A stretch of 64,000 nucleotides of DNA from Saxidomus purpurata (lineage: Eukaryota; Mollusca; Bivalvia; Venerida; Veneridae), in contig JAFMSR010000007.1 in NCBI GenBank assembly GCA_022818135.1, positions 3,898,181-3,962,180 on the forward strand, given 5' to 3'. The notes beneath the pieces are model-generated. The model saw only the letters and a program-made list of their open reading frames with translations, was not told the origin of the DNA and made no database searches. Every line of letters begins with the position of its first letter. Position 1 is the stretch's first letter. Position numbers and translations under genes: made by a program. Positions 17,901 to 44,900 of the stretch are shown here, piece after piece.

Positions 17901-20900
17901 TTTAGAATACCTACAAGTAGTTAACAATGATAACATCTAGATGCTTCACTGTCTTAAAGACATGGAAAGTAAAGCTGGAACAGTATCTGATTGGTCATTT
18001 CTGTTTAAGGGAATATTGGGCTAAGATGGCATTTCATATCTGACAATTACCATAGAGTGAAACAGTTTTCCAAAACTATACTGCTTGTGACCACTACAGA
18101 ATTAGTCTGTTCAGGAGAAAATGCTTCAACAGTTTCCTACTGTTTTCTCCTGACAGCAACAAAAAATTTTGAATACAAATGTATACTTGATTCAGGAGAT
18201 TAAGCAATTTTAAAGAAGTTTCATATTTCAAGATTTAGTAACTATGACATGCATTAAATCACTTTATTGTTAATAATTCAGTGAAAAATGTGTATGTATA
18301 AGGGCTTGAAACAAAATTTAGTGATAAATTACCAAAGAGTTGATAATCTACTTGCTTTGGATATCAGTTTATGAAATTTCTTCACAGGTTGTAAGAGATA
18401 TTTATAAGACGCAAACAACATGGAAAACTGTAGGATAGACAAAGACCCTTCCTATAACACCATCTCTGCACATGCAGCACATGATAAAAGAGACTTTGGA
18501 CTAATATTTTCAAGACATTCTACCGCCCTTCAACTAATTTTTAAAACACGTGCCATTTTCTAATAACAGTAAACTCACTGTGAGTTAAGTCTGGTACTTT
18601 CTTCATCAGATTCTAGGCAACCCACGTGAAGGTCACTATGTATTTTACGCATCAATGGCGTGCATATACTCTGTGAAATGTGCAATTTCTCTTCAACTGT
18701 TATCCCATATTCCTATAAAATATAGCACAGTATCACTTTTGCAATCTTTTATTCTGTATTCAAATTTCTTATGTCTGAATACTATTTATAACTGTCAAAG
18801 ATGTCTAAAATCTGAAATAATGTTTTTATGAAGTGAACATAAATGCTAGAAAACTTACAATTTTAGAAATGACAATGTAATTTGACCTTTATGCAATAAA
18901 AATTACCTTTTACCTACCTTTTATTTTTAATGACCTTGATCTATTGGCGATATAAATAACATTGAATACTTGGGTGTATAACCTTATATGACCTGCCAGA
19001 AATTTTAACGACCTTGACCTACATGAATTATGCATGACCTTGACCTACATTAAGTATAAATAACCTTGACCTACCTGAGGTATAACAATATCCGCTAGAG
19101 CTTTGGAACACAGGAATAACTCCTCTGCTCTCTCAAACTGTAAAGTTTTCTGGTTATGCTGTAGATCATATTTGATACAGTCATATATATCTGGTATCTT
19201 GCTAATATCATAATTATCTGTCTTTAGTTTAAAGTCTTTCTCCAACTTTGCCCAGCGTCGTATCAACAACTCCCAGGACTCTCCGTGGTATAGTTTCAAG
19301 TCTGTAATAATCAAATACACTGTAAGACATCTGATTTAAAGTGATATTATTGTTCAAAGTGACCATCAAAATTTAAAATAAAACATTAATCAGTGTTTTA
19401 TACTCCTAGAATAACTAGAACTATCACTGAAGGTGATGAATACCCCCCACTGAGACAGTATATAAAATTAATGTAATATTTGATGCTTTAATTATTGTTG
19501 GACCTGCACAACTTGAGGCTTCTGTGAAATACAATTAACTTCTGACCAGGGGTTTTGGAGATAAAAAGCACACAACATTTTACTATCTCAAGCCCCTGTG
19601 ACCTTTGACCTAGTGACCCGAAACATGGACCATGCACAACTAGACATGGTGCTTATCTATTCTGTGAAGTATCATTAAATTGTGACCAGGGCTTTTGGAG
19701 ATTTAGAGTCCAAAAATTTTACCATCTCGATCCTCTGTGACCTTGACCTTTGACCCGAAACATAAAACTTGCACAACTAGGCATTGTACTTATTACTTGT
19801 GTGAAGTATCATTAAATTCTGACCAGGGATTTTTGAGATTTAGTGTCCACAAGATTTTACTATCTGGAGCCCCTGTGACCTTGACCTTTGACCTAGAGAC
19901 CCAAAACATGGACCATGCACAACTAGGCATTGTACTTTACACTTGTGTGAAGTATCATTAAATTCTGACCAGGGTTTTTGGAGATTTAGTGTCTACAAGA
20001 TTTTACTATCTGGAGCCCCTGTGACCTTGACCTTCGACCTAGAGACCCGAAACATGGACCATGCACAACTAGGCATTGTACTTTACACTTGTGTGCGTGC
20101 GTGCGTGTGTGTGGTATAATAAATCAACCTTTTCTAATAACTTTAATAATCAATTTGTCAACTGACAGCAAGTAACAGACCCTCCCTTTGTGGAGGTCCA
20201 GTCGAGGAAGGTCTTTGAATATAGCCATTAATGTTTCGTTGATTTCATGTTTAACCATGCATTAATATGTTACTGCCTGTTTTGATTAATACACAGTTAA
20301 TTGTAGCACATAATTGATTTTCTCGGGTATTGGTAGACCTAATCACCACTGTTCCTTTCATTAAGAGAATAAAGGGATAAATTAGAAACAACACACTTTT
20401 AATATTTCATTTCGAGATACAATGAATTTTTTTCTACAATTTTTTTGGCAACCAAATTCACTTTTGGGCAAGCAAATCTTAACAGTTGATTACCCGAAAT
20501 AGCAACCAGATAGAAACTAAAAACCCCTGTGACCTTGACCTTTGACCCAGTGACTTCAAAATCAATAGGGGTCACCTAATGGTCATGACTAATCTCCATG
20601 CAAAATATGAAGACTGTGGGTCAAAGGAATCTGAAGTTATTAGGGGGAAAATGTTTTTTAAGTCAAGGCCCCTGTGACCTTGACCTTTGACCCCATGACC
20701 TCAAAATCAATAGGGATCATCTACTGATCATGTCCAATGTAAAAGCCAAATATGAAGACTGTGGGTCAAAGAAATCTCAAGTTATTGGGGGGAAAATGTT
20801 TTTGAAGTCAAGGCCCCTGTGACCTTTGACCCCATGACCTCAAAATCAATAGGGATCATCTACTGATCATGTCCAATGTAAATGCCAAATATGAAGACTG

Positions 20901-23900
20901 TGGGTCAAAGAAATCTCAAGTTATTGGGCGGACAAGCTTTTTGAAGTCAAGGCCCCTGTGACCTTGACCTTTGACCCCGTGACCTCAAAATCAATAGGGA
21001 TCATCTACTGATCATGTCCAATGTAAATGCCAAATATGAAGACTGTGGGTCAAAGAAATCTCAAGTTATTGGGCGGACAAGAAAAAACCGACGGACGGCC
21101 GGACGTCCAGACAGACGTCCGGACATCTGTCCGGACGTCCAAGCTGATTCCAGTATACCCCCCTTACAACTTCGTTGTGCGGGGGTATAATAAACATTGC
21201 CATAGTTATAACCCAAAAATGACGATCTGTATAACAGTTTCATTCACATTGAATATAGAGAAAATCTGTAAAAATCTTTTTTGACTATCCTAGTCAAAAA
21301 TAAAAAATCCACCCTTTCGGTTATGTATATCTTAATTTGTATTTGTCAATAACAGAAATAACTTGGTAAGACTTATTTCTTATCTATTTTTAAAGCATCC
21401 ACTGGGTTCTGAGCATCATTCTTGACTATAAACCAATGTGACCATTTTGAAGGGTTATATAACTTTAAACAGTTTGTAATGTGGTACAAACTGCATCTTC
21501 AAATTGCTACTGAAGGTTTCTTTCTGTAGAACGGCTTGAAAGAATCTCATGTCAAGCAATTTCAAAGGACACTCTAAAGGTTGTGATTTACTTTTTATGT
21601 AAGATTACTTTTTCTGACCATAGAAACTATTGCAATGTTTGATATATCAACCCAAATTCCAACTGATGCAATGCTTAATTGTCTTTAGCAACATAAAAGC
21701 TTATGGAATCATTTCACATACTACATTTTAAGTCAACATTAGCCATGTCTGTTCACAGCTTACCTCTAGACTTCAGTTCCATTTTCAATGTCCTTATCTT
21801 GGCTGTAATCTCCTGTACCATTTCATACACCCGATCACACATCCGCTTAGGATTCTTTATAAATGCCATTGCCTTTACAAGTGATGTGTTCTTTGTAGGA
21901 GCCAACTAATGAATTAGAAAGTGATAAAATGAGTGTTATTTTTAGCTTATGTATCTCTTGGCCTATAGGAAAGAGTTATGTTTAGCTCCTGTATCTTGGC
22001 AAATACTTGCTGAAAGGCTTATAATGGAAATGTAAGCTTACTATTTACATTGAAACACTTTGAAATAAACCGTTAATTTTGCATTTCCTTCTTTCTGTTC
22101 ATGCACTTTAAACACACATGTAGGCACTTTGAACACTGATAGACTAAACATTGCAAGTGAATACAACAAACAATGAGGAACTCCCTGAAACAATATCCCC
22201 CAACTAAAGCATGATATTGTGTAAATGATAAATGTGATCATCTTCTCCTAGAGAGAAAGACTAAAAACAACAGAGGTACAAACCTTGTCTTCATCCTCAA
22301 CTGTGAAACATTTATCCTGATTCAAGATCTCCATCAATTTTTCCTTCACACTGAAATCACAAGAAACAATACTGAATACATTCCAACTTCCTCAAAGTAC
22401 AAAGTACTCAAAGGCTATGCAGGATGTCTATCATTGCATTTCCATGAAACTTTTACTTATTCTGACTTAACATGGCTATCAGTTCTTATCAGTAGGCCTA
22501 TCATTTTGCACATAACACTATATCCCTTGATCACAAAGATGAGCCATCCATAATGGGAGCAGGAGGTTGAATCCCAGACAGGATTCAATTCAATATGGTG
22601 AGCCACCAGTTAATTGTAAAATAACTGGCATTACAGCTGACCCTATAAAGTGGGAGGGTCTGTAATAATGAAACACTTTGCCTTAACACTCAGTGACACT
22701 GACAAACATGGAAGGTTTAGAATTAACATCTATGAGGTTAATGACTTAAACCATTGATCTACACTGGTCAGTATGAAGCCCATTTTCCCTTTGTCAATCA
22801 TTTACTCTCGAAAGTAATTATAAAGGAGAACATTTTAATATGATTTTAAAATGTTGAGCAGAACAGTCAGGCTGCCAGACTGAGTGAAGAACATGACCGT
22901 AGTCTGATCCATAGATCTAAGACTGAAGCGGAGAAGCTGACCCTACTTCACGACCTAGGCCTAGGCATGTCAGCTGTTTCACAGACACCATAGCCAAAGG
23001 CAGTAGTATTGTACTCACATATGCTGATATTTTGATGTTTCACCCTCCTTATCTAGTAAACCGTTTGTGTTGGCACTCTTCACCATGGAAACCAATATTG
23101 GTGTCAGCTCTCCCTCTAATGCTAACAGACCCTATAATAGCATTCTAGCATTCATTAGTAAAAGAAGTTGCACTATGAATATGTATTAAGTGTTCTAACA
23201 TTTCAAATGAAACTTGAAGTCCTTTGAAATGGTGTATATTCTTTTTATACCTTAAACTTCCAGACATAAAATTAGAGTACAACTTATTGACTCAAATTTC
23301 TGAAAAAAAACTTATGTCGTCACAATATATGAAGTGAAGCTAAAAATATTTGAAGTCAAAGACTGGACAATTTCATCCTTTGCCAAAACTTAGAATAGGC
23401 CAACTGCTTCTATAACAAGAGCTGTCAGTAGGACAGCGCGCTTGACTTTTAAGTGCTTGCCTATAAAACAAAACTTTGACAGTTAAGGGCACACAAGACT
23501 TTAACTAGGAATTTCTAAGTACAAATCAAGAAACATTTTCACAGAGTTATCTTCTCTTGCTTACAGATAGGTCTCATGATGGTTCATAAGTACTCCAAGT
23601 TTCAAAGTAATATCTCAAATGGTAACAAGTCAACAAGTGGAAAAGAATGAAAAACTTAACCAAGATTCTAAGTTGATAAAGGGCCTTAATTTTTAAAACA
23701 AATCCCTGACAGAGTTACCTTCTCTTGCCTACAGATAGGGGTAATTAGTACATAAGTACTCCAACTTTCAAAGTAATATCTCAAATGATTAAGTCAACAA
23801 GTGGACAAGAATGAAAATTTTAACTGAGTTTCTAAGTCAAAAAGGGCCATAATTCAAATAAAATCCTTGACAGAATTACCTTCTCCTGCCCATGTTTTGG

Positions 23901-26900
23901 GATCATGATGGTTTACAAGTATTCCAACTTTCAAATTAATATCTCAAACAGTTTAGTCAAAAAGTGGACTGGTACGAAAAACTTAACCAAGATTCTAAGT
24001 CGATAAAGGGCCTTAATTTTTAAAACAAATCCCTGACAGAGTTACCTTCTCTTGCCTACAGATGTGGGTAATGATGTAAACAAGCATTCAAAGTTTCAAA
24101 GCAATATCTCAAAGGGTTAAGGCAATAAGTGGATTTTACCCATATTCAATGTATTTTCTAAGTAAAAAAGGGGCATAATTCTGTAAAAAACCTTGACAGA
24201 GTTATGTACTCTTGTCTGTTGATGAAGGTCATGATGGTAAACAAGTATGCTTAGTTTCAAAGCAATACCTCCAATGGTTTTGAAATAAAGTGAGGTGGTA
24301 CAAAAAACTTAACCAAGCTCAATACACTTTCTAAGTCAAAAAAGGGCCATAATTCTGTCAAAAACTTTGACAGAGTCATGTACTCTTGTCTGTAGATGGA
24401 GGCTATGATGGTAAACAAGTATGGTAAGTTTCAAAGCCATACCTCTAATGCTTTTGAAATGAAGTGGGGTGGTACGAAAAACTTAACCAAGGTGTGACAC
24501 CAACGCCGACGCCGGGGCGAGTAGGATAGCTCCCCTTTTCTTCGAAAAGTCGAGCTAAAAATCAATGAATCCTGGACTTATGAAAATTCATAAGTTGTTT
24601 TAAAATGTCAAAAGAATATTTCAAGCAAATTTAACTTGACTAATAACAGAGGACAATGACAAACTTTTGTGAATGCTGCGGCAGTCATCTGCACTCTTCC
24701 TTCATCTGATGCATAAATCTTGAGATCATGTCTGAATGTACTGTGCAGGCGGAGAAAACCAAGACCTGGAGTCTCAAACTCTCCTAGAAATACATGTAAA
24801 CAATTTTCTAGGTCACTGAATTACTGTTAAAACCATAAGGTGAAGAAATGGAATTTTCTATAATAATGTTTTTACTTTGCACTATAAATTTTCAAAGGCC
24901 AGCTGGTATACTGAGCCATGCAGCTAAAAGACTTTTGCTGATTTAACAAAACAAGTAACTTTTGAGAATTGAAACTTAAATTGTTGACAACTATAATTAA
25001 TATGATGACATGAATTTCTTTCCTTTTGATATTATTTTGATAACATTCTCAAATTTTCAACTGATATAACACATTTGTCCTAAGTTTTAATGTCTTTAAT
25101 TGATGACATTCTCAGATTTTCAATTACCTCTAGAAAACTCCTTATGACAGCCATCAAAGCTCTGAAACTACTTATATTTAGATGTATTCAAACTATTTCC
25201 ATATACCTTGTCCACCAGGATAAAGTGTTCTAAATGCCTTTCCAAGATCCTCCGCCTGATACTTTCCTGCTGGAGTTAACTCCCCTCCCCATTTCACTAT
25301 TAACACAAGAGATGGCTCCTTGGGGTATTCATCTATAATATGAAATATATCATAAAATCCACAAGTTTGTATATTTTCACACCAATCAATTTCCTATACA
25401 AACTTTTTCCGGCTCTCCATCTGGTACTTATATCAGACACTGACTATTACATTTTAAATTTAGACAAACTCGCTAAGTACTTAGTACTGCATCCTTCAAT
25501 GCATTCAGAATTCTATTTCAAACAGGCTTTAGAGTATCATCAGTTGTTTTTTCTCTTTAACTGGCCTACTAGCCCAAACTTGAAAATATAAATTCACTTT
25601 ACACTGACGACCACTTTGCATTGTCTGACAAAAACTGCTTTATAAATGAATCTGAACTTCATCAGGATGGGAGTTGTGGTCTCTTTCTAACCCATGTTAA
25701 CCAAAAAAGGAAAACTGTCCATCATTATGCGTCATGATCTACAAAAACAGCTTAACAAAATGAAGCAGCCACTGTGTTTAGACAAATAGTTTGTAAGCAA
25801 ATCACTAAAAATGTAGTTTTTCAAACATGATGCAATTTTTATTTATAATAGGGATTTATTATATCCAACTTTTGCTAACTGACAAAGGTGGATGGACAGA
25901 CTATTCAATGTCAGACAATGGCTGATTACAACACATCCCCATGTACACAACATGCTCAGTGGGTCAGAAATGAAGATCAACAGGAAAAACATTAAAATTC
26001 TTATGACTGATAATTACATTTCCTCCATTGTTAAAATAATACAATTTTTTCTATTTCTTTTCTACAATTACCAAAACGAAGGTTGTAAAATATATTGCAG
26101 TGAAAGACAGAAATGATTTTGATAAATAAGTCTATGCCAATTATTATTCTAAAACTGATACTAGGAGATACACTGACAAGTAAATCTAAATGTAACAAAA
26201 ATGATATTCATTAATTTTTTTGACTTTTTAAAGCTAAAATACAAATATGAAACATACAAATATCTACAACATATACAATATCATCAAAAAGAATATAAAA
26301 ACATATTGCAGAAAAGCATACAAAATAGCAAACTTTATCACCCATTGTTAATAAAATAATTATGATATTTTCTACAAATATATGATACACACTGATTTGT
26401 CATTTCAAGTTAGTTTTTGTTGCAGAAGATCTAACAATTTAATTTGATCTTTACATCTCATCTTTGTTTTGTTAAAAACATTTCAAATTAAAGCATCTAT
26501 ACCATCAACATTCTCAAACAGGCATCACCCAACATAATTAGGAACATTGTTGTACAACTGTGTGAATGGCCTAAATGAAAGATTTTTATGTATTTTTTAT
26601 TTTAACTGAAGAAGTCCGACCTATTCTAATAACCCATGCTTTCATGAAGATGACCCAGCCTCTATCCCAATCACAACCAGTATATTCTGACTAATACTGC
26701 TGAAGATTTCATGGAAGATTTAATGATTAAAGGAGCTGCAAGAGCGTGAGGAACAGCTTTCTCCTTATTGACCATACAACCCTTTTTTTTCTCCAACAGG
26801 TTCCCAAGTTGCAATCCCTAACAAAGATTTCATCAAAGGTAACATTCTAACTAAAGCCTAAGCTGAAAGTGATTCATACCTCCACTGTGTCAGAGATTAT

Positions 26901-29900
26901 GAGCTATATACCAAGTTTGGTTACAATACCTATCTCCTAGGAGTAATATGTGACATAAAATAAGTGATGCAACCGTAAATGTGATCACATACAACTGTTC
27001 CTGTGTCACAAAACACAACAGAGTAACTTCTTGATCAGCCTCCTATCAACACTTCTTATTGTGGAAGTCCTATCAACACTTCTTATTGTGGAAGTCCTAT
27101 CAACACTTCTTATTGTGGAAGTCCTATCAACACTTCTTATTGTGGAAGTACATGTATACCAAAAGTTCAAAAAGTGTAAAATTACAACAGTTTTACTGTG
27201 ATCTTTATCACATTAACAAGGCATATCATGATCATAGATTAGAGATAGAGGAATGGTAAATAAAGTACATGTTGAGTCTTTGGCTCTTATTTGCTAAAAA
27301 GTATCACTTACAAAAGCTGTTGGGAGGCAAGCTTCAAGTCCTAACCATATTAAGTTGATAATCATTACCCCATTTTTCAACATACATATCACTCTGACCT
27401 TGACCTTTAACCTACTAATCTCCAAATTCTTCTAAACGCTTCTAACATAACTTAAAGTTAGCAAATTGATTCAAACACTGTCAAACCAAAACATGAACAG
27501 TAAAGAAAGCTTAGAACAGTGAAGGGGGTCAAGTTTAAAAGCTTAGTGCTGAAGCTAAATCACTCACTAATTCAGACAAAGTCAGAGAAGGGAAAGAAGA
27601 GATAAAAAGTTTCTTTAAACACGAGGGCCATGATGGCCCTTTATCGCTCACCCGAGTACAACTGCTTTTAACAAAGTTGCTAGAAATCATCGAAACAACC
27701 TTTCTGACAAATTTCCAGGATATTTGGGCTGAAAATGTTACCTCTAGAGTGTTAACAAGGTTTTTCCATATTTGGGCTCTGTGACCTAGTTTTTGACCCA
27801 AGATGACCCATATTCGAACTTGAGCTAGAAATCATAGAAACAACCTTTCTGACAAATTTCCAGGATATTTGGGCTGAAAAATGTTACCTCTACAGTATTA
27901 ACAAGGCTTTTCCATATTTGGGCTCTGTGACCTAGTTTTTGACCCCAGATGACCCATATTGAAACTTGAGCTAGAAATCATCGAAACAACCTTTCTGACA
28001 AATTTCAAGGATATTTGGGCTGAAAATGTTACCTCTATAGTGTTAACAAGGTTTTTCCACATTTGGGCTCTGTGACCTAGTTTTTGACCCCAGATGACCC
28101 ATATTGAAACTTGAGCTAGAAATCATCGAAACAACCTTTCTGACAAATTTCCAGGATATTTGGGCTGAAAATGTTACCTCTAGAGTGTTAACAAGGTTTT
28201 TCCACATTTGGGCTCTGTGACCTAGTTTTTGACCCCAGATGACCATATTCGAACTTGAGCTAGAAATCATCGAAACAACCTTTCTGACAAATTTCAAGGA
28301 TATCTGGGCTGAAAATGTAACATCTAGAGTGTTAACAAGGTTTTTCCATATTTGGGCTGTGTGACCTAGATTTTGACCCCAGATGACCCATATTCGAACT
28401 TGGGCTAGAAATCATCTCAACAACCTTTCTGACAAATTGCCAGGATGTTTGGGCTGAAAATGTTACCTCTAGGGTGTTAACAAGGTTTTTCCATATTTGG
28501 GCTGTGTGACCTAGTTTTTGACCCCAGGTGACCCATATTAAAACTTGAGCTAGAAATCAACTAAACAACCTTTCTGACAAATTGCCAGGATATTTGGACT
28601 GAAACAGTAGCCTCTAGAGCCTTAACAAGATTTTTCTATTTTTGGGCTGTGTGACCTAGTTTTTCATCCGAGATGACCCATATTCGAACTCGTCCGAGTA
28701 ATTACTGGGACAAACATCCTGACCAAGTTTCGTGACAATTGAGGCAAAAATGTGACCACTAGAGTGTTAACGAACTAAGTGTGGACGGACGACGGACGAT
28801 GGACATTCATCGATCCTAATAGCTCACCCTGAGCCAGCTCAGGTGAGCTAAAAACAAGGGAATATTAAACTAAATCTAATGAAGAGATTTTTGCACAGAA
28901 GTTTCAGAAAATTTATTGCACTATATACATCAGATAATGCCTTGGTCACATATACGTATGATATCCGAACGTTCTATAAAATCGTACAATTCCATCAACT
29001 TTTAAAATACGTACAGCCTCCGTACAATCGTAGCTTCAGGTCATATGTCTACAAAGCCTTGTATGATCTTCTGGAGGATGCAATTGTAGGTATAGGTACA
29101 GACATAGCAGACAGGTCGTGCAGAGATTGGAATGAGCTCGGACATACCTCGTACCATGCACGCGTTTGTACGGTGCTCGTACGGTGTCTGTAATACAAGC
29201 AAAAACCAGTTTGGCGATAATTTCTCATTTTTAACTAGAATCGTCAAGGATGTTGTACAGAGCCCGTGTGGTGAAGGTTACATCCTGCAGGCCTTGTGCA
29301 GACATTGCAAGTTCCCCACCCGGTGTCCGTAGTATCGTACGTATTGCTTCTCCCATGTGATAGACTTACAAGCACCTGCAAACTCTTACGGGCCTCGCTG
29401 TGTTTCAAATCCACACAGACATAGTGTGATGCTCGTACGAGCTCTACTGGGGCCATTGGGAGCTGCTCCCAACTTCGAAAATTACTATGAGCTATTCGAT
29501 AACTAGCGAGCTCGGTGAAACATTTTTACCGAGTTCCTGAGTTCTCTACGAGTTCAAAAAATCCGTACAATGCTCGCAAGATTGAACAATGTCCATACGG
29601 AATCTGTGTGATTTTGCAAAATTTCGACCAAAAACCTACTCGTACAGAGATCATAGCGCTTATGTGACCAGGGTTTAATCAGCTAGTAAATGGGCAGAAT
29701 TGAATTATCCCCCCAAAAAATCTGAACCTTTCAGACCTTATAAAATGTTTTGAAATTTAACACTGACATAATAACTTTATGAGCATTATCAATTTTTCTT
29801 CAGATTCATCTTTGGACAAGGAAACCCACCATTACTTTCTTAACAAAAGAACTAGAACTGTCACAAGAGTGACGAATTATACCCCCACAATACAGCTTTG

Positions 29901-32900
29901 TCACAGAAGTATGGCAACCATAAGAAAGGAATGGCCACAAGGACATAGAGTTGAGTTATTATACAATAACTTGTGTAAATGTATTGTTTTAATAGCAAAA
30001 ATACATTTTTAGTATAAGTGACCTTGACCTTGACCCTAGTGACCTTGACCCCCAAATTATTTTTTTGGCTTAAAACAATCTAAAAACTAAAAATAAATAA
30101 AAATCTATTTTTAGTAACAGTGACCTTGACCCTAGTGACCTTGACCCAAATTTTTTTTTTGCTTAAAAGACTCTAAAAACTCAAAATAAATAAAAATCTA
30201 TTTTGAGTAACCTGACCTTGACCTTGACCCCACGACCTTGACCACGAAAATTTTTTTTTTGCTTAAAACAATCGAAAAACTAAATATAAATAAAAATTTA
30301 TTTTTAGTAACAGTGACCTTGACTTTGACCCTAGTGACCTTGACCCTAGTGACCCAAAGCTTCCTCTCCACGCAAGCCCCCCCCACCCCAAGTTTCATTA
30401 CAATTGGTCACTCCTAACCAAGTTATTGAGCGGAAACCATTTTCCTATTTTTAGTAACAGTGCCCTTGACCTTGAACCTAGTGACCCAAAATGCAATGCC
30501 AAGCTTCCTCTCTACACAAGCTACCTACACACTGAGTTTGATTGCAATTAGTCACTCCACTTCGCCCCTGGCCCGGGAAACCATTTTTCTATTTTTAGTA
30601 ACAGTGACCTTGACCTTGACCCTAGTGACCCAAATGCAATCCCAAGCGGGCCCCCCAAAAAAAAACCAAAAAAAAAAAAAGTTTCATTGAAATCGGTCAA
30701 GCATTTCATGAGTTATCATCCGGAAACTTGTTTTACAGTTCAGAGTCACTGTGACCTTGACCTTTAACCTACTGACCCCAAAGTCGAACTTGACCTGTAT
30801 TTCATAAAGTTGCACGTGTGTACCAAAAATATATCAAAAAGGGTAAAGTCGTTCATGAGTTATCATTCGAAAAAAAAACCAAAACACAAGCTAAACCAAC
30901 AGACCGACCAAAAAAACAAACAAAAAAAACCTTTTTTAATACCCCCCCCAAACTTCGTTTTGTGGGGGTATAATAATTGAAAACTAAGATCTACACAAAA
31001 TAGTGTTATAACGGGCACAAGTATATAATAAAATAACAAATCTGGCACTCCCAGTAAAAGAAGGGTCATTGTTAGTATAGGAATTAAATCATGGATCACC
31101 CTAGCTGTATTGCAATATACACAAGACTAGTATAGACTTGACAAATACTAAGCAGAATGCAAGACAAAATGCGTTTACATAGTTGTCCTAAATATGGACA
31201 CAATCAAACCAATATTTCCTTTAAACGAAATGCTGATTGGACATGTAACAAGTTATCCAAAGGCAGTAACTCTGGATTTAAAGAATGGTTACACAGAAGT
31301 TTTTATAATGGTAAAATCCAGTGATATAATGAGAAGGCTAACTATACTGTACTTAGAGAAATGATAAGTTAGGTTAAACCTTAGGTATAATGCATCAAAA
31401 CAACACAATTTCACAACTGTACCAACAATGCACATCTATTAATCATAATTATGCAAAAATGAGATCAGGAATTAAGCACTAATGAAATGTTAAAGGGAGG
31501 TCACTCTTTGTTAATTTCAGCACTGAAGCCAGACTTACAGCCCCTGGAATGTGTTTTATACAAACCATCACTTGAAGTTGCTGGTCTGCCATATGGCTGA
31601 TATTTCAATTGAATTTTCCTGTTTATTCCAGAGAACTCATACCTACATACAATGAATAAATGAACTAAATATCTTTAAAAAATTTAAATGACATTAGAGT
31701 TTTGAAACTAGTGTAGCTTATCATATCTTTCCAAAGCTAATAAGAAACTGAATATAAACTGACCCATAATCTGTTATGTTCTGTGTTAGAAATTACAGCC
31801 TCACAGTAAAAATGACTTAACTCGTCCATATTTATAGCAAATTAGAGTCATTCCATCACTTCTACCAAACAAGAGGGCCATGATGGCCCTTTATCGCTCA
31901 CCCAAGGGCATTTTGGACTGTAAATGTTACCTCTAGAGTGTAAACAAGGCTTTTCCATATTTGGGCTCTGTGACCTAGTTTTTGACCCCAGATGACCCAT
32001 ATTCGATCATGAGCTAGAAATCATTTAAACAACCTTTCTGACAAATTTGGGCTGAAAATGTTACCTCTAGAGTATAAACAAGGTTTTTCCATATTTGGGC
32101 TCTGTGACCTAGTTTTTGACCCCAGATGACCCATATTCGAACTTGAGCTAGAAATCATTTAAACAACCTTTCTGACAAATTTCCAGGATATTTGGGCTGA
32201 AAATGCTACATCTAGAGTGTAAACAAGGCTTTTCCATGATTGGGCTCTGTGACCTAGTTTTTGACCCCAGATGACCAATATTCGAACTTGAGCTAGAAAT
32301 CATCAAAACAACCTTTCAGACAAATTTCCAGGATATTTGTGCTGAAAATGTAACCTCTAGAGTGTTAACAAGGTTTTTCCACATTTGGGCTCTGTGACCT
32401 AGTTTTTGACCCCAGATGACCCATATTCGAACTTGACCTAGAAATCATCAAAACAACCTTTCTGACAAATTTCCAGGATATTTGGGCTGAAAATGTTACC
32501 TCTTGAGTTTTAACAAGGTTTTTCCATATTTGGGCTCTGTGACCTAGTTTTTGACCCCAGATGACCCATATTCGAACTTGAGCTAGAAATCATAGAAACA
32601 ACCTTTCCGACAAATTTCCAGGATATTTGGGCTGAAAATGTAACCTCTAGAGTGTTAACAAGGTTTTTCCACATTTGGGCTCTGTGACCTAGTTTTTGAC
32701 CCCAGATGACCCATATTCAAACTTGACCTAGAAATCATCAAAACAACCTTTCTGACAAATTTCCAGGATATTTGGGCTGAAAATGTTACCTCTTGAGTGT
32801 TAACAAGGTTTTTCCATATTTGGGCTCTGTGACCTAGTTTTTGACCCCAGATGACCCATATTCGAACTTGAGCTAGAAATCATCAAAACAACCTTTCTGA

Positions 32901-35900
32901 CAAATTTCAAGGATAATTGGCCTGAAAATGTAACATCTAGAGTGTTAACAAGGTTTTTCCATATTTGGTCTGTGTGACCTATTTTTGACCCCAGATGACC
33001 CATATTCAAACCTGGGCTAGAAATCATCGAAACAACCTTTCTGACATATTTCCAGGATATTTGGGCTGAAAATGTTACCTTTAGAGTGTTAACAAGGTTT
33101 TTCCATATTCAGGTTGTGTGACCTTGTTTTTGACCCCAGATGACCCATATTCGAACTTGAGCTAGAAATCATCTTAACAACCTTTCTGACAAATTTCCAG
33201 GATATTTGGGCTGAAAATGTTACCTCTAGAGTGTTAACAAGGTTTTTCAATATTTGGGCTGTGTGACCTAGTTTTTGACCCCAGGTGACCCATATTGAAA
33301 CTTGAGCTAGAAATTAACCAAACAACCTCTCTGACAAATTGCCAGGATATTTGGACTGAAACAGTAGCCTCTAGAGCCTTAACAAGATTTTTCCATTTGG
33401 GCTCTGTGACCTAGTTTTTGACCCCAGATGACCCATATTCGAACTCGTCCGAGTAATTTCTGGGACAAACATCCTGACCAAGTTTCATGACAATTGAGGC
33501 AAAAATGTGACCACTAGAGTGTTAACAAACTAAGTGTGGACGGACGACAGACGACGGACATTCATCGATCCTAATAGCTCACCCTGAGCCTACAGCTCAG
33601 GTGAGCTAAAAATATTAATTTCATCATTTAAGGGGCCTTAATCTGTGTTTTTTAATCATGTACATTACTTGAACTTTCAAATTCAAAACGTGAACAATGA
33701 AACAGAACTGTTGTACATTTCAGATATTTCTTCAACTGTTATTTCAAACACAGAATGTTCAAGAATCTGGGTCATGTGCACTCTCACTCTCTAAAAGCTT
33801 CTGGAAAACAATAAAGACACTATAACAAAGGGTGCTGTAATAAACTTAAGGCTGCAAATGTGGCTATAGAAAAGCAGAAGTTAATATCAGCTGTAAGAGA
33901 TGAGACATCTAAAGAAATACTATTCTATTGATTCCGCTAACATAACTGCCTGGACACGATGAAAAAGTTTGGATAAGGGCATCGCTCCAAAACAAGGGCA
34001 GTCTAGGTGTTAAAATATACGAGAATATATCTTACTTTAAAAAGAGAAAACAGAGATGGTAATGTTTTCTCTGCATGTTGTTTGATACATGTACTGTAAG
34101 GATCAAACATTTTATTATTCTGAAGTTCTTAGATTTCTTGAAAAGTCTCAGGTACCAAAATAAGCAGGAGCAAAACAGTATCTCTAAAAACTGACCAATG
34201 ATAATAATGTTTCTGTTATAATCAGGCACTTCTTCCCTTACCTAAATGATTACACATAAATCTATATAAAAAAATTGCCACTGAATACAATATGTAACAA
34301 ACAAAAATGATTAAATATAATAAAGCAAAGATGAATTTTTGAATTTAAATTGGTCAAGTTTAAAGAAACACATTTTCCATGCAGAGAACGGCACAACATG
34401 CCAAGCACAGGGCCAAAGTCTGGTCTACAAAATATTATCTGAGATTACGTACAAGGAGGTGGAGCATACTTAACGATCTCAAAATTCAGACCTTCTTCGC
34501 TTGATGACTTTTTCGGTGCCCCATTGGGCTGGTACTTTAGCTGCACTTTACGATTTATACCAGAAAAGTGTCCATACCTAAATTAATACATACATGATTA
34601 TACATACATTATTTCATACCATTGGTTGATCAATGACTCCATTCTTTTCGCAGACACTGATGTAGGAAAGACAATTACTGTGTGTTTGGTCAAAGCATTT
34701 GTTTCAATAATACTGACATGATTTTTATCAAAATCATAAATTTTATACAACAAATCAACTTACTGGGGAAAAAAAATGTTTCTATCTTTTTAAAAGAATT
34801 ACGGACATAAAATTTGAGGTTTCATTTTGGTTATTTCAAATGATACTGAATTCCCAAAAAATGATTTCCTTGTGTTCATGTCACTGTATTCCTTTGCAAA
34901 ATGCTTTGTCCATAACTTTTAAACATTCAGTGTGAAATTATGGAAAAACAAATACGTTTAGCTGAAATGCTACCTGTATTATGCCAAGATGAAGCCATAG
35001 TTTTATAAACACAAGGGTCAAGAAGATGTTAATGAAGCTGGAACTTTGTTTGTTAAAAGGACCCAGTACCCTACTGATAGAGACCCAGTAACCTACTGAT
35101 AGAGACTTTGAACTGCTTGGTAATCATCTTATAATTTTGCAGTCTTCCCGAAAAGTGCCTGTCTGCCTTAAATGTCGAACAAAATCTTAGTTGGTCAGGC
35201 AAATATTTGCTGCTGTCTGACTGAATGCCAGGCACTTTATGTCATTTTACACAACAGATTCTCTTGTATGGTCAGACAAAAGTTCCATCTGTCAGGCAAA
35301 GTTTTGTGTTATTTGATCACAAAATTTTTCAGGAAGGCTGATTTTCCCCAATTAAAGCAGACACCAATTGACTGTGAATGTTTCCAACTGGGTAACAGTT
35401 AATCAGTCTGGTACAGTTCGATGCCAAATTAGTTTGGGCAACCAGTCTGGTTTCGTTAATTTCCAGTGGTTAAGAGTTTAGGTTTCTGGTAAACATCCCA
35501 GCCTTGGTGAAAACATAAAGCCAATACAGCCCCTTGCTACAAACGAACTTAACTGTGGTAAAACTTTTGCTAACAAGAAAAAATAAATTCAACTAAAAAT
35601 TACAGCTGCATCAAATAATTTACAATTTCAAATAAGCATTCATTCATTTTAAAGCCTGAAAAAGAATAAGTTCTATCATTACATGCAAGCATTTTGCAAG
35701 CATTTGTTTGCATAAGTTAATTACAGAACGTTTATCATAAATGAAAATGTCCTTGATACATTAACATTAAATTTATCAGTTCAAAGTAAGTTCAATAAAA
35801 CATTGCAATTACCTACTTTAAGCAATTTGTAACTTCTTCAAACTGGAGTAAAAGCAAACCTACCCAGTTCTTTGTAATGTTTAGACCAAACATAAAATGC

Positions 35901-38900
35901 ATTCTCTTCTCATCAGGCATGACCACAAACAAACCTCTCTCTTCTGCTTACAGACATACTTTATATATTTTGTTGATATACCAGACTCTCTGCCGCTCTT
36001 GTCAAACATTCTGCTCTATAACCACAAGTTATAATAAACTGTCTGCTTTTACTATAAATGTAGACATCTTTAAACCTTTCTACTTCTTAACCAAACTCTG
36101 AACATTAACAAGAACTCTTTAAACTGGATTATTAAAGACTTACATTTCCAGGACTAACTTCAGCTGCTGCAGTTTTGCTTTCTTCTCAAGAACCTCTGGG
36201 TTTGGGTCATGCCCGCTTTCATTTAGAAGATCTCGGGCAATATCCAGCACTTCCTGTAACTGTTTTGGCTTCTTCAGTTTCAGATGGCCCTTTTTGTATC
36301 CACCATGCCTTTCAAACAGCTCGAAGAATCTGACGAAATGAAGAGAAGAATTTTCTCTCAACTTGTCAATACTCAATACTAATATATCTACACCATGCAG
36401 CTGTTGCTAAATAAACTACTAATAAATAAACTATTCTAACGCACTAACGATGTTACATCATTTCTGTTTGGTAACATCGTTTAAATTTGTGACTATTAAA
36501 TAACAAATATAGAGTGGCAAAAATTGAACAGCGTTTAAATCATCGCACTGTGTGTTAGAAAAGGGTTAACTATTTAATGATTTTCACATTTCCGACCGTA
36601 GGCCTATAATTATACGGTTTTAACGGTTGCAAACCGTTTTAACAGCTCCGGTTAACGCTGTAGCCATTGAAAATATTTGCGACCATTAAAAACCGTATGT
36701 ACAGTTGCAAATATCAAAATTACAAAACAATTTACCCTTTTATACAATTTTCATGGAATGCACATCTACTATTCAAATTCAGTGTATCGGCCTTAAAAAG
36801 TCTCCTCATGTTAACAGTCAGAGTTGTCATGTATTTAACATACAGTAACATTTTACCCCCCGTAAAGGGAGATACCCCCCTCTCCTTCCCCCCTTTTTTA
36901 ATTATATACTTGTATATAAACCTTCTTCCATTGTGGTGTAGTGAAGTCACTTAGATATTTATTACTTGCACAACATTTTTTGGGAGATTTTTACGGTTAT
37001 AGACTCAGCCTGGTCTAAGAAGTTCTTACATGTACTTTTGCATTGCTGACTCAAGATAAATATTCTCATTATAGAGCAAGTCAATTCTGCAGATGTCATT
37101 TCTACACAATTTTCTTCAGTATAAATTCAACAGTTGTATTCCTTGACCTGCATATCTGCCTCCAGTTTATGAAAATAAGAATGATTTGACAAGCCTGAAT
37201 TCACACTTGATGGATGTGTTTTCATTTGCAATTCAGAGTTTTATTCTCTCCTTTAATGGCAGTTTTAGATCTACAGGTAGATCAAGATCAGCAATTTTCC
37301 TAAAATGTCTTTATTACTTTAGAGGGAGACAACTAAATTTTTATTCTATTTTTTTCTAGTTTTGGGTTGTTCCCCCTTGCAAACATCTCTTTGTCCATTT
37401 GAACGTCTATAATTTCAGACAGTGCTTGGTTTATAAATGGATCTTATGGTATTTAATGTGTTAAATGTTATAAAATCTTGTGTATTTAATGTGCTATAGG
37501 TCTTAAATAATATTTAACTAGTATTTACTATTAAATAATTAAATATTTTAATTATGTCATGACAGCCATGTATCTCTTTTGTTTGTCGTGAAAATAGATT
37601 TAAGGTAATGGCTGTATTTCTATATTGTATCTGACATAAAATAAAGTTTCTTGTATCTTGTATCTTATTTATAAGTAATTACAAGTATCTAGAACATCTT
37701 TAACCCGAAATGTGTTGCCTTTCAAAATAGCTTATCCAGTAAAATCTTACTTCTTATGTTTGACCTCCATCTTCATCTTCTGTTTTGGAGTTCTATCACC
37801 ATGTCTTATCACAGCAATAACACATCGCAGCTCCATCCTACAGTATATTTGTTACAAAAGGTACATGTGTTATATTCTCAAGCTTTAACCCTTACGCTGT
37901 AAAATCACTAAAATGTGAGTGTACATCATCCAATCTGAACGATTCCATTAATTGTTCAAATGTTTGCTCACCTGGATAGCCAACAAATGTGCAAGCTGAT
38001 CATAATCTGCACTTATTACATTGCCATCAGAAGGGTAAAAGTTACAAATAATTACAAGTTTTGAATCAAACTGAGCTATTTTACATAATAGGAGAGTTGT
38101 CAGCCATGGTATCTGATCTGAGATTGGTGCTAAGAAAGCTTCCCCACCACTTTTTTCTCCAGTTTTATGTATAAAATGAGTAAAGAATTCCTCAAACAAG
38201 GCAATGTACACTTAAAATGAAACTTCAAAACTAGATGGGTGTACAGTAGAACATTTGTGTCGCCCTCTTACGCTTTGTCAGAATAACCAATAATTTTGTG
38301 ACAAAATCTAAGTACAAAAAGGGGCATAACTCTGTCAAATATGACCTTGACCAACAAAATTTGGCGGCATCATGACGCTTATGTCATAAGCAATACAATT
38401 TGAAAGTTTGATGAAGAAATCTTAAGAAATGGCAAAGTTATAGCCAACATTAAGTTTTCGTGACAAAATCTAAGTACAAAAAGGGGCATAACTCTGTCAA
38501 ATATGACCTTGACCTACAAAATATGGCGGCATCACAACCCTTTTGACATAAACAATACAATTGTAAAGTTTGATAAAGAAATCTTAAGAAATGGCAAAGT
38601 TATAGCAAAAATCTAAGTAGAAAAAGGGGCATAACTCTGTCAAATATGACCTTGACCTACAAAATTTGGCGGCATCATGACCCTTTTGTCATAAGCAATA
38701 CAATTGTAAAGTTTGAGGAAGAAATCTTAAGAAATAGCAAAGTTATAGCCAACGTTAAGTTTTCGTGACAAAATCTAAGTACAAAAAGGGGCATAACTCT
38801 GTCAAATATGACCTTGACCTACAAAATTTGGGGGCATCATGACCCTTTTGTAATAAGCAATACAATTGTAAAGTTTGATGAAGAAATCTTAAGAAATGGC

Positions 38901-41900
38901 AAAGTTATAGCCAACGTTAAGTTTGTGTGACGGACGGACAGACAGAGGGACGGACAAAGCGATCCCTATGTATCGCCTTTTCTCCGAAAGGGCGACACAA
39001 AAATAACTTCCCAATAACTATTGATGAAACAACAAATTAAATATTTTCTTTTTTCAGTGGAAAGTGCACTTTATATGACAAAATGTGTAAGTGTTTTATA
39101 TGAATGACTGTCTTCTATGCTGGCTGTCTACAGCACAAACTAAATCATTTACAGAATGGCTTTTGTGGCTCTTAACAGCTGATTGTCCACTTGATATAAC
39201 TTCTACTGTTCTACTGAATTAGCATCCAAAAACAGACTTGTTTAGATTTTCATAGTTTTTCTAGACTGGTTCTCAAGTGGTAAGTCCAAATTATGGTGAC
39301 TGATTACAGACACAGCTGAAGCAGTTACCTGCTGTAAGATCTTGATACAGACAGTACTTACATTGAGCCCGATGTGGTGGGTACAACAGGTATATCCTCT
39401 GGTGCAGCCCCTAAAACAAGGGCCACATTTTGTATGTGTAACTGAGGGGCTAATGCCCTTACTATCATTGTCCTGTAAATAGATAAACATGTAAACAGAA
39501 TGGTTCATATCCACCTAAATATATTCTACAGGATTTACAATTCATTAGAATTGAGCTTGTCTTCATCATCTACATGTAATGGTTATATGAATATGATTTC
39601 TGGATATTCCATCAGTTTGTTATCTTTTTATGATACTCTATCTTTCATACAAGTATTACCCTTAGCAGTTACCAAAATAACAGATATCTGTTGCTAGGCA
39701 ACCGTAATATCAATTATCTTCAATAACAATGATGGTTTCAACTGTAAAGTCCTTATTTCTAATTGTCTTAAGAACATATTATAAAAGATAAAATCCCAAA
39801 ACAAACAAGTCTTGTAAACAAGATTCTAAAATGTACAACTTCCAAAAACTGTGACAATGAAAAACATTTAAAAACACATATAACAGAATTGTAAATGCAG
39901 TTGATACAGTCTGTGTGACATGGTCAACGTGCCTTACTCAGTCTGTCTTCCTATATCCCAAATAGTCAACAGTACACAATTTATTGACCCTAACCACACT
40001 GGCACTATTGATTGTTAAATGCCCAGTATCTTTTCAATTATTTACAAGGTTTTGAGGTCACATTCTTGCAATGGAGTATTACTACACTCTTAGCCTCCTT
40101 AAGAAACTGCCAATTTTCATAACGGGCTAGGTTGGTAGCAGGACTCAAACCAATAAGCCAAACAGTGACAATTTAGGTGATTTTGCCATGGAGGTAGATG
40201 GGACAACTATCAAGACAGGTTCAACAGTATACAGGTTATTTACCCTAACACGTTGGCACAATCATCATAGTATTTGGTGGAATTCTTCACAAAGCTGAAG
40301 CCATTAACATCACAGACGTATGACTTTCCACTGGTCCTCAATAGGTCAAACCCACATACATTTTGCTGAAAAAATCACAAACACAAAATGTATCTAATGT
40401 ATAGTTAAAGTACTTTTATTCATAGATGTTTTTGTAGCAACTACTTGCTTCAATGTACAAGAAAAGCATAATTAGACCAGACAACACAAGGTGTCCGAAG
40501 GGACAAGATTTGAACAAGAGGGCCAACTTGGCCCTATAAAGCTCACCAGGCTACCATTGGCTATAATATAAGGTGAACAATTGCATCACAGGAAAGGTCA
40601 ATTTTGACCTTGGGGTCATGATTTGGACAGTTTTAGTACAGATCCACTACACAATTCTACATTCCAAATATCTAAGCTCTAGGCCTTGTGGTTTTGGACA
40701 AGAATCTTTTTGTAGTCTATGTGAAATCAAGTGACCCCCTGTGTGAGGTTCATTTTGACCCTGGGGTTATAATTTGAACAGTCCACAAGACAATGATTGC
40801 TTTGTTGTTTAAGAGAAGATATTAAAAAATTTCTTATAGAAATCTATGTAAAGTCAAGCGACCTCCAGACAGGGTCAATTTTGATATGGGAGTCATGATT
40901 TGAACATTCTTGGTAGACGTCCTCAAGGTTATGCCAAATATCTAAGCTCTGGGCCTTCCAGTTTCTCAAAGAAGATTCTTAAAGTCTCCTATTTGTTGCC
41001 ATAGCAACCAAATGTCTTATTGCAACTACTTCCTTTGAACAATCTTTGATGAGGTTCACCCAAGGAAAATCGAAATTGATCAAGTAGTTTTTCACAAGAA
41101 GATTTGAATGGACGCTTGTCTGTGAATGGTCACAATAGCTCACCCGAGCTAAAAAGTGGGATGGTACAGAAAATTTACACCAAGGCAAGACAGTGACTCA
41201 GATGCCAAGGCAAGTAAGATACTCCCCTATTTGATATTCAGACTAAAAAGCACTTGTAATCTTTGAACTTACCTTAAAAGCATGGCAAAGTTTTCTTGCA
41301 ATATTTTTCTCTGTGGGTGAAAGGAGAACTGGGTATCGGACCTCTTTCCCGTCTTTATCTCTCTCCACTTTGCCATCAAGTGCGGGGGATTTCCTAGCCT
41401 CGGCATGCACATAGTCCGGCCCTACTGTGTAAACCTTGACATCTGTGCCATCAGTTGGCATGAAATCTTCATAAATGTACGAGCCTGTCTTTCTTACTCG
41501 ACCAATCGTGGAATAGACACTACTTCTTGAACCGACCTAAACTCCAGATAGAAAACAGTACATAATTAAAAAACAGTTTAACACCACATCAGTTAATTGT
41601 ATGAAATACCAGTTACAAAAACACAACTTTCATCTGAATAATTCTGTGAAATTCTAAAACTATTTTACTGCTTCCAACAATGTCATAGTGAAATCAAGAC
41701 CAGAAGGAATCAGGCAAAATTTTGAAAGCAAATAATGTGGAGGTATGTTTTCATGTCTACTACTGATTTAGTATATCAAGGGTTGACCGTAAACTGTGGT
41801 TTGACCTTTATTAAATTATTTCATATAAGTTACGACAGCTTTGTAGTAAACCCTCGATGTGTAAATTGTATTCTACAATTTTTTGTTCCAAGAACTTTTT

Positions 41901-44900
41901 GTATTGCAGAAGCATATCTTCAATACATACATAGGAAAGAAAATATTGACAGTTAAAATATGTTTTAAAACTGCAGAAGTATATCTTCAATACATATATA
42001 ATCATAGAAATGGAAATAGTGACCACTAAAATACAATGTAGGAAAATCAATTCAATGAGTACAAAATGCTAAATATAGACAGAGGTATTCTGCTAGCATA
42101 GATGAGTTATGCAGTCAGTTATAGCCTGACAAATCAAAGCATGCACCAGAGTCTCAGTATAGAGTTGCATGATGCAGAAGATAAGACATGCAAATATGAA
42201 AATGTAAGTTGATGACTACACATTTCCCTTCCCTACTTTCAAGTAATTGTTTTACTTGGTTCAAGTTACTGAAAGCAAAGGACTGACTATGAAGGTAAAA
42301 GATGAACTTTGCTTCCAATTTTATACAAAACCTGAATCATTATCTTAATCATTATCTTTCATGATTAATAGTTTCATTGCTCTTTCCTTAAATGTGACAC
42401 ATGCAAAACAGAAATATTGACATATCATAGGCTAAACTTTCAGTTCTTTATTGACAAAAACCTAATCAAAACCAAAAGTGAACAACCTCACATGCTGACG
42501 AACAGTTTAGTAATGCTGCCTGACTCTAGATTATCTACGAGTCCCACAAATTACCCAGACATACTGACAGTCAATGACAGCTCTATATGCCTTCTCCAAA
42601 GTTGAGAAACAAATCTTAAGCTTCCTCATCATGGTTTCTTGATAGGTGAAAATAGATGGCAATACATTTTTGAGAACTTGCAAATTTTAGAGGTATTGCA
42701 CTGAAATACAATGGTAACAATAAGTTTGAATATCATGATTCAAGTCCATGGTATAATTCCATCAGTCCCTTCACCTGACAATACAGAAAATTTATGTAAG
42801 TCTATGCATCTAACAAATGCATGCTTAAGAGCCTGAGTAAGTCAGAAAAGCACCAAGAACATGCCTGGAAATTAAACTCTCATCTACATGTATATGGTGA
42901 CTAACACTAGACTTTTGAGATACTGGTACAAGGCCACATAGATGTATGCACAATGCATTGGATGTTTGCACAAGGTAACAGAAATATTAACACAAGGTTT
43001 ATGCACAAAAGGCAACAGAAATGTTTGCACAAGGTGAAATGATAGCATGCAAAAGTCAACAGGAATGTTTGCACACATCAACAGGAATATTGCAAAGGGC
43101 AATTAGGGCAGTAAACAAACAAAAAAATTGATGATGAATTGCCATGCAATATAAAGCCCCCTACTTGTTGGGGCAATCTATACATAATACAAATGTACAC
43201 ATTTATCCTGTGGTAAAGGTAATCCAATGAAATTACTGAGGAGAATAAGTATGTCACAGATCATTTATATTTGTAAATCTGTACATGTGGCAATGTAGAT
43301 ACAGCTATATCAAACCAAGGTATAACACCTACTTGTGACGTTGGGAGTAGGTGGCTGGGTGTTGTTTGCGACACATATTTAAGGTATGGGTAATAATTGT
43401 GGTACTACAGTCTATGCATGTACAAGCTACAGAGGATAGGAAATACTGCTATATAATGAGAATGTTGAGCTGTAAGTGTGACCTTGACCTCAGGAGTAGG
43501 TGGCTGGGTGTTGTGCAAGACACACCTTCATCACATGACTAACACTCCTGTGAAGTTATATTGAAATTGGTCCATGCACTAAAAATATACAGAGAAATAT
43601 AAAAATATGATACTAACTTACAGAGTTTGAGCTCTTAAGTATGACCTTGACTTGGGGAGCAAGGGAATGGGCATTGTGCATCATTCACCCTCTTTACATT
43701 GGTAACAATTTCATAATGTTATATCAAAATTGGTTCCTACATGTGGGAGGTACAGACCAGAAACGAAATTGATCTTAATAGAATTTGAGCCCTCATAGAT
43801 AGAAGGTTATGTGTTCAAGCCCTGCCACAGACATGTCTCTTTAAGTGAGAAAGTTGGCAGATTCTTTCAAGAACAGGAGCTAGTACTGGTTTGCAAAATA
43901 GCTGGACTGGGCTTTAAACTCCTATAACTAGGGGCATGACACACCTTTTGTGGTATGGGTAACTGTTGTGTGAAGTTACATCAAAATTGGTGCATGCATG
44001 TGGAAGATACTAACCAGAAACAAAATTGCAGACGGACAGAACAGCAAAAGCCTGTAGTAATCGAACCGGACATATGACCAGTAGGGCACTAAAATTAGCA
44101 CCATGCAAGACTATTGGGATGCATGTGCAAGGCAACATGAAAGTTTGCATAAAGCAAGAGTATGTTTGCACCAAATCGCAGGAATGCTTTCTAAAGGCAA
44201 AAGGAATGTCTGGGAACAAGCAGAAATTCCACCCATGCAAAAGGCTCAAAATTGTGTTTCTGTGAATGTCAGACAAGTTGGAGAACAAATCAAATAAATA
44301 TAAGAAAGAAGGCATTTAGAATACATGACTGAACAAAATAATGTACATCAGTCCTGTTTAAATATAAGTCCTTTATGTATGACATAACATCCCTAGAGTA
44401 AAGACTTCACTTTATTGCCTTTCAAGTTCAAAAACTCAATAAAATTGAATACTTAAAACTTAATTACATGTACATGCTCTTCTCACATTCTCTCCTCTCA
44501 AAAAACTAAATTACCTGTGACAAGGCAATGAAGAATGTTTTACAATCCTTTTGAACTTTAAACAAAATATTTGAAATAGGGCCTTGAATGAAGAGTCAGA
44601 CTGTATCCCAACTGAGCGCATATCAATGTCTTTTTACTCCAGTTTCCATGGTGGTCTTATAATTGTTTAAACTAGAACTGTCACAAGAGTGACGAATTAT
44701 ACCCCCACAATACAGCTTTGTCACAGAAGTATGGCAACCATAAGAAAGGAATGGCCACAAGGACATAGAGTTGAGTTATTATACAATAACTTGTGTAAAT
44801 GTATTGTTTTAACAGCATACAAAATGTGTAAGGTTGACCTTGACCCTTGTGACCTTGACCCCCAATTTTTTTTTTGCTACAATTAATTAACAGTTTTATT

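Follow-up and report, generated by a model that had tools for sequence, protein, structure and literature searches.

Exon 10 of the PPIP5K gene in the bivalve Saxidomus purpurata is present in two homologous versions, 10a and 10b, which probably form an ancient mutually exclusive pair whose exclusion is largely enforced by the reading frame. The gene lies on the minus strand of the window, a stretch of 64,000 nucleotides (assembly GCA_022818135.1, contig JAFMSR010000007.1, positions 3,898,181 to 3,962,180) from whose first letter all positions below are counted. From its domains and motifs, the product is predicted to be PPIP5K, a kinase that is also a phosphatase of 1,5-bisdiphosphoinositol tetrakisphosphate (1,5-InsP8).

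Reading frame of exons 10a and 10b

Both exons are present as a first-pass annotation had described them, with lengths of 125 and 104 base pairs (bp) and with AG acceptors and GT donors (Table 1). Each is entered after two bases of a codon and leaves one base. Each also has a second, upstream in-frame donor (at 34492 in 10a and at 31566 in 10b), and use of these proximal donors gives lengths of 86 and 77 bp. All four lengths leave a remainder of two when divided by three, so that the versions share their phases and differ by a small multiple of three. Transcripts were assembled in silico from a 20-exon model, in which either exon alone kept the frame without a stop (902 amino acids with 10a and 895 with 10b). 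When both were included, translation read C-MSSLE and then a stop, which is the stop after six codons that had been predicted, and a stop was obtained for all four pairings of proximal and distal donors. Skipping both also broke the frame (LEI, then a stop). Due to these stops with both exons or with neither, the frame would favour use of one exon at a time.

The likeness between the exons was scored over a 22-residue ungapped stretch of 10a, which reached 88 against 10b. Elsewhere on the minus strand the highest score was 20, and 60 first-order Markov resamplings gave at most 30; on these values, an open frame arising by chance was rejected. Within a core of 18 codons, 36 of 54 bases are identical and 18 differ, and the differences at first, second and third codon positions number 5, 1 and 12. 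Four of these codons are identical, 11 are synonymous and three are non-synonymous. By this codon comparison, the substitution pattern is that of constraint at the protein level.

Splice sites were rated by a small score built on the 19 constitutive sites of this gene. Values were 7.7 and 2.0 for the proximal and distal donors of 10a and 4.2 and 6.3 for those of 10b. The acceptors of 10a and 10b were low (3.1, below all 19, and 4.9, above one), and the weakness of sites at both exons is taken as a hint only. Judged from protein only, the Pinctada, Sinanodonta, oyster and Gigantopelta homologues pass from the proximal end directly into the exon-11 peptide. The extension GLNFESTKYDVSPH of the Mactra homologue resembles the distal 10a form. 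Two exons with two donors each would make up to four in-frame isoforms possible. The first-pass claim that the frame makes the pair mutually exclusive stands as to the preference for one exon at a time, but enforcement hinges on the 10a donor used. The accompanying contrast of loops, PKKSSSEEG in 10a against a different sequence in 10b, holds for the distal-donor pair, but the proximal donors give other, shorter-exon sequences. The proteins of homologues agree for the most part with the proximal ends, which leaves the long loop contrast in doubt.

Other possible enforcers of exclusion were sought in the introns. Steric crowding would be possible but is not required, and it was rejected, the intron between 10a and 10b being about 2.8 kilobases (kb) by coordinates. 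Two inverted repeats of at least 22 nucleotides were found between 25200 and 36400. One is A/T-rich (30086-30308). The other is a weak match of 22 nucleotides, 77% complementary, with arms at 28430 and 33466 that flank 10b and lie 5 kb apart; it was identified in the window sequence alone. The reading frame remains the visible enforcer of exclusion. Separately, tandem arrays of one 145-bp unit, on the same strand and with 91-92% matches, flank 10b in the introns (32045-33445, about 9.7 copies; 27679-28690, about 7 copies). Such direct repeats could favour loss of 10b by unequal crossing-over.

The strand encoded by exon 10

According to passages of PMC11836120, PPIP5K phosphatases are seen from crystal structures of yeast Vip1 to possess a GAF domain. 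This domain is a binding site for 1,5-InsP8 and swings about a hinge to which Gly646-Gly647 belong; a joint mutant of Glu576, Lys623, Gln625 and Lys627 is inactive. By global pairwise alignment, Lys623-x-Gln625-x-Lys627 of Vip1 falls on K-V-Q-L-K of 10a and on K-I-Q-L-K of 10b, and the hinge glycines fall on KWGG of exon 11. A numbering offset of 533 was used, with which 13 of 14 visible residues named in that paper match the stated letter (position 557 is F, not K). Alignment by phmmer paired a different stretch with KLNFPGTKIQ; the global alignment, which places K-x-Q-x-K on KIQLK in both isoforms, was preferred. A hidden Markov model left the middle of the GAF domain unaligned (15 of 32 chosen homologues and the two window isoforms). 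K-x-Q-x-K is present in all 163 homologous segments examined.

The AlphaFold model of the 10a-type protein P0018 has a mean predicted local distance difference test score (pLDDT) of 58.5. In it, a strand at 517-524 covers K-x-Q-x-K (10-residue block means of 76 and 74), the stretch 530-536 falls below 50, and the next strand, 544-554, contains KWGG. Foldseek matched this model to Vip1 phosphatase chains (PDB 9grh/9grn/9gro) with E values of 1.8e-13 to 6.0e-12, at target template modelling scores of only 0.40-0.43. By alignment and model, exon 10 encodes a strand of the GAF domain, together with the turn that precedes it and the poorly ordered loop that follows. The turn is Y-GH-F in 10a and Y-E-F in 10b, one residue shorter. 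On this reading, the residues that hold the substrate are common to both versions, and the exchange affects the turn ahead of the strand and the flexible loop running on to the hinge. The first-pass annotation had placed the swapped piece in a surface loop near a PH-like part of the protein, with a possible role in lipid binding. Nothing was found in support of lipid binding, and the PH-like loop was rejected because exon 10 aligns to the GAF strand.

Note that the length of the loop between exon 10 and KWGG varies by up to about 20 residues among homologues P0005, P0006, P0010, P0011, P0019, P0031 and P0103 and insect proteins such as P0007 and P0024. Between Mytilus P0006 and P0088 the difference is 12 residues. 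Such variation suggests that, across protostomes, this site makes use of alternative donors or micro-exons.

In the mechanism that we infer for this species, a tandem duplication would have produced 10a and 10b, of which each transcript would carry just one. If the likely donors are used, inclusion or omission of both exons would bring an immediate stop, and nonsense-mediated decay would remove the transcript. In either version, K-x-Q-x-K would retain 1,5-InsP8 as this moves towards the catalytic site of the phosphatase. The exchange would alter the turn ahead of this strand and the flexible segment linking it to the KWGG hinge strand, most likely so as to adjust how 1,5-InsP8 is captured and channelled, hence the balance of kinase and phosphatase, depending on tissue or state. 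That exon choice tunes phosphatase activity is a tentative proposal, to which we give somewhat less than an even chance; conservation and structural logic speak for it, the difference in activity being a guess.

Homologues, age and alternative explanations

Homologues were collected by protein search (best 120 of 443 matches) and by a later search limited to 10b (43 proteins), which together gave 162 representatives and 163 exon-10 segments. Some mollusc names are abbreviated in the records and were read as Mytilus, Biomphalaria, Ostrea and Haliotis. In 158 of the 163 segments, Y and F are separated by two residues. The remaining five, all from molluscs, have one residue between them: Gigantopelta P0003, Ostrea P0021, Crassostrea P0025 and P0026, and a second copy in Magallana P0001. 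Exon 10b of the window is of this shorter kind (YEF). Protein models P0003, P0021, P0025 and P0026 have a 10b-type exon without 10a. Over stretches of 22-41 residues, P0003 is 79% identical to window 10b and 64% to 10a, and P0021 is 77% against 59%; for the 10a-type proteins, P0018 is 96% identical to window 10a and 77% to 10b, and P0002 is 85% against 82%. The first-pass annotation had raised the case of a 10b broken in all related species. This is not so, 10b-type exons being intact in oyster and Gigantopelta models.

In a tree of 46 distinct 25-residue segments, the 10b types of the window, the oysters and Gigantopelta, three in all, formed one split with a bootstrap of 92. The identity of P0003 was assessed with exon 10 masked. 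The homologue alignment took in 44 of the 162 proteins, and the masked tree took 19 of those plus the window. In this tree, P0003 groups at a bootstrap of 98 with P0097 and Patella P0010, and all three lie among the gastropods (91). On this placement P0003 is read as probably from Gigantopelta, a gastropod, and not from the mussel Gigantidas, whose name begins with the same letters. The label “isoform X” on P0003 and P0021 points to NCBI gene models, a class that is usually supported in part by RNA reads. Taken together, the sequences point to one 10a/10b duplication, probably before bivalves and gastropods split. That split is probably more than 500 million years old. Since oysters and a snail share the 10b version, an old, real switch is likelier than a leftover.

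Several observations weigh against an ancient, frame-enforced pair. Double inclusion stays open when other GTs in 10a are used (lengths 69, 108 and 129). These are called less likely, and the length-108 GT, which would permit both exons, scores 3.5, above the 2.0 of the distal donor. The splice score ranks the same 19 sites on which it was built, and on it the distal donor of 10a and the proximal donor of 10b fall below all 19 constitutive donors. The 10b split is drawn from only 25 columns. The masked tree, which joins the window and Sinanodonta to gastropods (100) and not to other bivalves, is not a clean species tree. Among the matches listed, 23 of 28 mollusc-named representatives have only 10a, four have only 10b and one has both; single-form records weigh little either way because clustering at 90% hides isoforms. 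Among homologues, 10a and 10b were seen together only in Magallana, in the same order as in the window, and the Magallana gigas model (P0001) includes both in frame. Its 10a reads ..SSSEDEVWRMFDLLGPLSR and then continues into 10b by way of an unusual 10a end, VWRMFDLLGPLSR; this may be an error of automatic joining, or oysters may sometimes include both. None of the 43 proteins from the 10b-limited search was 10b-type, which says little because known 10b records were not returned either. Finally, both versions keep K-x-Q-x-K, and the isoforms could be equal in activity.

Three other explanations were weighed. The first gives 10b a chiefly regulatory role, that of a poison exon, which on addition to 10a brings a stop and lowers PPIP5K, its own protein being incidental. 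The stop after six codons in every donor pairing is what this would produce. A poison exon would, however, have no need to keep K-x-Q-x-K, and 10b is constrained as protein, with 11 synonymous against three non-synonymous codons, and occurs without 10a in oyster and Gigantopelta models; we consider this explanation improbable. Magallana P0001 brings up a second, namely that the exons are real alternatives that are not strictly exclusive. In some molluscs, another 10a donor would then place both in frame and repeat the GAF strand, and the length-108 GT in window 10a would allow likewise. This is decidedly improbable, in that the Ostrea and Crassostrea models have 10b alone, a second strand copy would be expected to disrupt the domain, and the frame is lost with the proximal as with the distal donor of 10a. 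Least probable of the three is a decaying 10b, open here by chance with only 10a used, which could account for the many 10a-only representatives and the low proximal 10b donor, but which is opposed by the open frame, canonical sites and third-position-biased divergence of 10b and by oyster and gastropod 10b-type proteins that are closer to 10b than to 10a.

Gene model, related systems and meaning

The gene was modelled with 21 exons, including both 10a and 10b, with AG acceptors and GT donors throughout. PF18086 (PPIP5K2_N), PF08443 (RimK-type ATP-grasp) and PF00328 (His_Phos_2) exceed the Pfam cut-off in both proximal-donor isoforms. The gene product has the ATP-grasp kinase domain and histidine phosphatase domain architecture of PPIP5K, and the RHxxR catalytic motif is present as RHGDR in exon 8. 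Among the matches listed, the protein of Mactra antiquata, a bivalve of the order Venerida, is closest by identity (92% over 724 residues).

Table 1. Coordinates of the PPIP5K gene and of the exons around the homologous pair
Feature	Position	Strand	Basis and remarks
PPIP5K gene as modelled	16752..52486	minus	Splice sites, frame and Pfam; model excludes the first coding exon and the C-terminal tail
Exon 9, constitutive	36144..36329	minus	Splice sites and frame, homologue matches; ends with two codon bases, ..GAA AT/gtaagt at 36144
Exon 10a, proximal-donor form, 86 bp	34492..34577	minus	Donor AAG/GTCTGA; Sinanodonta P0018 and Pinctada P0004 proteins fit
Exon 10a, distal-donor form, 125 bp (first-pass annotation)	34453..34577	minus	Donor CTT/GTACGT; Mactra P0002 carries a similar extension, GLNFESTKYDVSPH
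Exon 10b, proximal-donor form, 77 bp	31566..31642	minus	Donor ATG/GTTTGT; oyster and Gigantopelta 10b proteins fit
Exon 10b, distal-donor form, 104 bp (first-pass annotation)	31539..31642	minus	Donor GCT/GTAAGT; adds GLYKTHSRG
Exon 11, constitutive	25207..25332	minus	Begins AT GAA TAC at 25332 (two codon bases); carries hinge strand KWGG

The whole assembly (1.13 Gb, 4232 contigs) was searched for further copies. The phosphatase part gave 12 reported matches, every one of them within this gene, and only 10b and 10a were reported for queries with 10b. This search scores best candidates only, and one 10b query did not list 10b itself, so that weak extra copies may be missed; within this limit, a second PPIP5K locus was rejected as the source of 10b, and PPIP5K is apparently single-copy in this bivalve. 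Scans with tblastn on the strand of the gene gave no second copy of any other exon. Beyond the modelled exons, an acidic open stretch of about 300 residues (14301-13399, minus strand) aligns at 38-47% with portions of the Mactra P0002 C-terminal tail and is likely a fast-evolving tail exon of PPIP5K. At 53712-54788 on the minus strand, open stretches repeat motifs such as QLLYLMSISTASIFNVHINSFYI, probably as a tandem repeat.

Switches of this kind are already known. Mutually exclusive exons of coq-2 occur in helminths, annelids and molluscs (this and what follows on coq-2 from passages of PMC7434440). Like the PPIP5K pair, they are two homologous internal exons of a metabolic enzyme that change a region near substrates in the enzyme core, and they are used one or the other, as is proposed for PPIP5K. 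In both genes it is the a-form that is similar to the lone exon found in animals where no second copy exists. The gene and reaction differ, both coq-2 exons of C. elegans measure 134 nucleotides, and their use and effect were shown by RNA sequencing and exon removal, whereas the PPIP5K pair is known from sequence alone. In humans, 377 of 629 clusters of mutually exclusive exons (60%) hold exons not divisible by three, as stated in passages of PMC5740500. As in the PPIP5K pair, these are homologous neighbours in the same frame, with lengths that differ in small multiples of three and, as is predicted for that pair, exclusion by frame incompatibility. On the strength of those 377 clusters, frame enforcement is ordinary among mutually exclusive exons.

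Within the enzyme family, the phosphatase domain of yeast Vip1, with its GAF insert, is the nearest likeness, its KIQLK aligning to RK[VI]QLK of both isoforms; the strings “splic” and “exon” are absent from the main text of PMC11836120. Human PPIP5K2 is an orthologue that is alternatively spliced, but there a single exon is included or skipped (in frame in PMC7735754) and no homologous pair is involved, according to passages of PMC7735754 and PMC8370746. No such PPIP5K pair appears in the passages of these two papers or of PMC4063336. The string PPIP5K is absent from the main text of two papers on duplicated exons (PMC9741552, PMC9013439) and from that of the human-cluster paper. No report of a homologous exon pair in PPIP5K was found in the open-access literature, most subscription papers being outside this coverage. 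The kind of switch is thus known, and for PPIP5K it is unreported in the literature covered; the interest lies in which strand is swapped and in the apparent age of the pair.

In its fullest form, the proposal is of a splicing switch older than the bivalve-gastropod split that exchanges the 1,5-InsP8-capturing strand of the GAF domain, combined with a choice of donors that lengthens the loop, so that up to four isoforms would differ in their balance of making and breaking 1,5-InsP8. We offer this as a speculative possibility, more likely wrong than right. A question open for PPIP5K is how the net output of a single protein is set when its kinase and phosphatase domains oppose each other. If the pair is used as proposed, nature would have supplied a test of this in isoforms that are alike except around the GAF strand that captures the substrate, and an enzyme of phosphate and energy-balance signalling would be added to the mollusc enzymes that are switched by exclusive exons.

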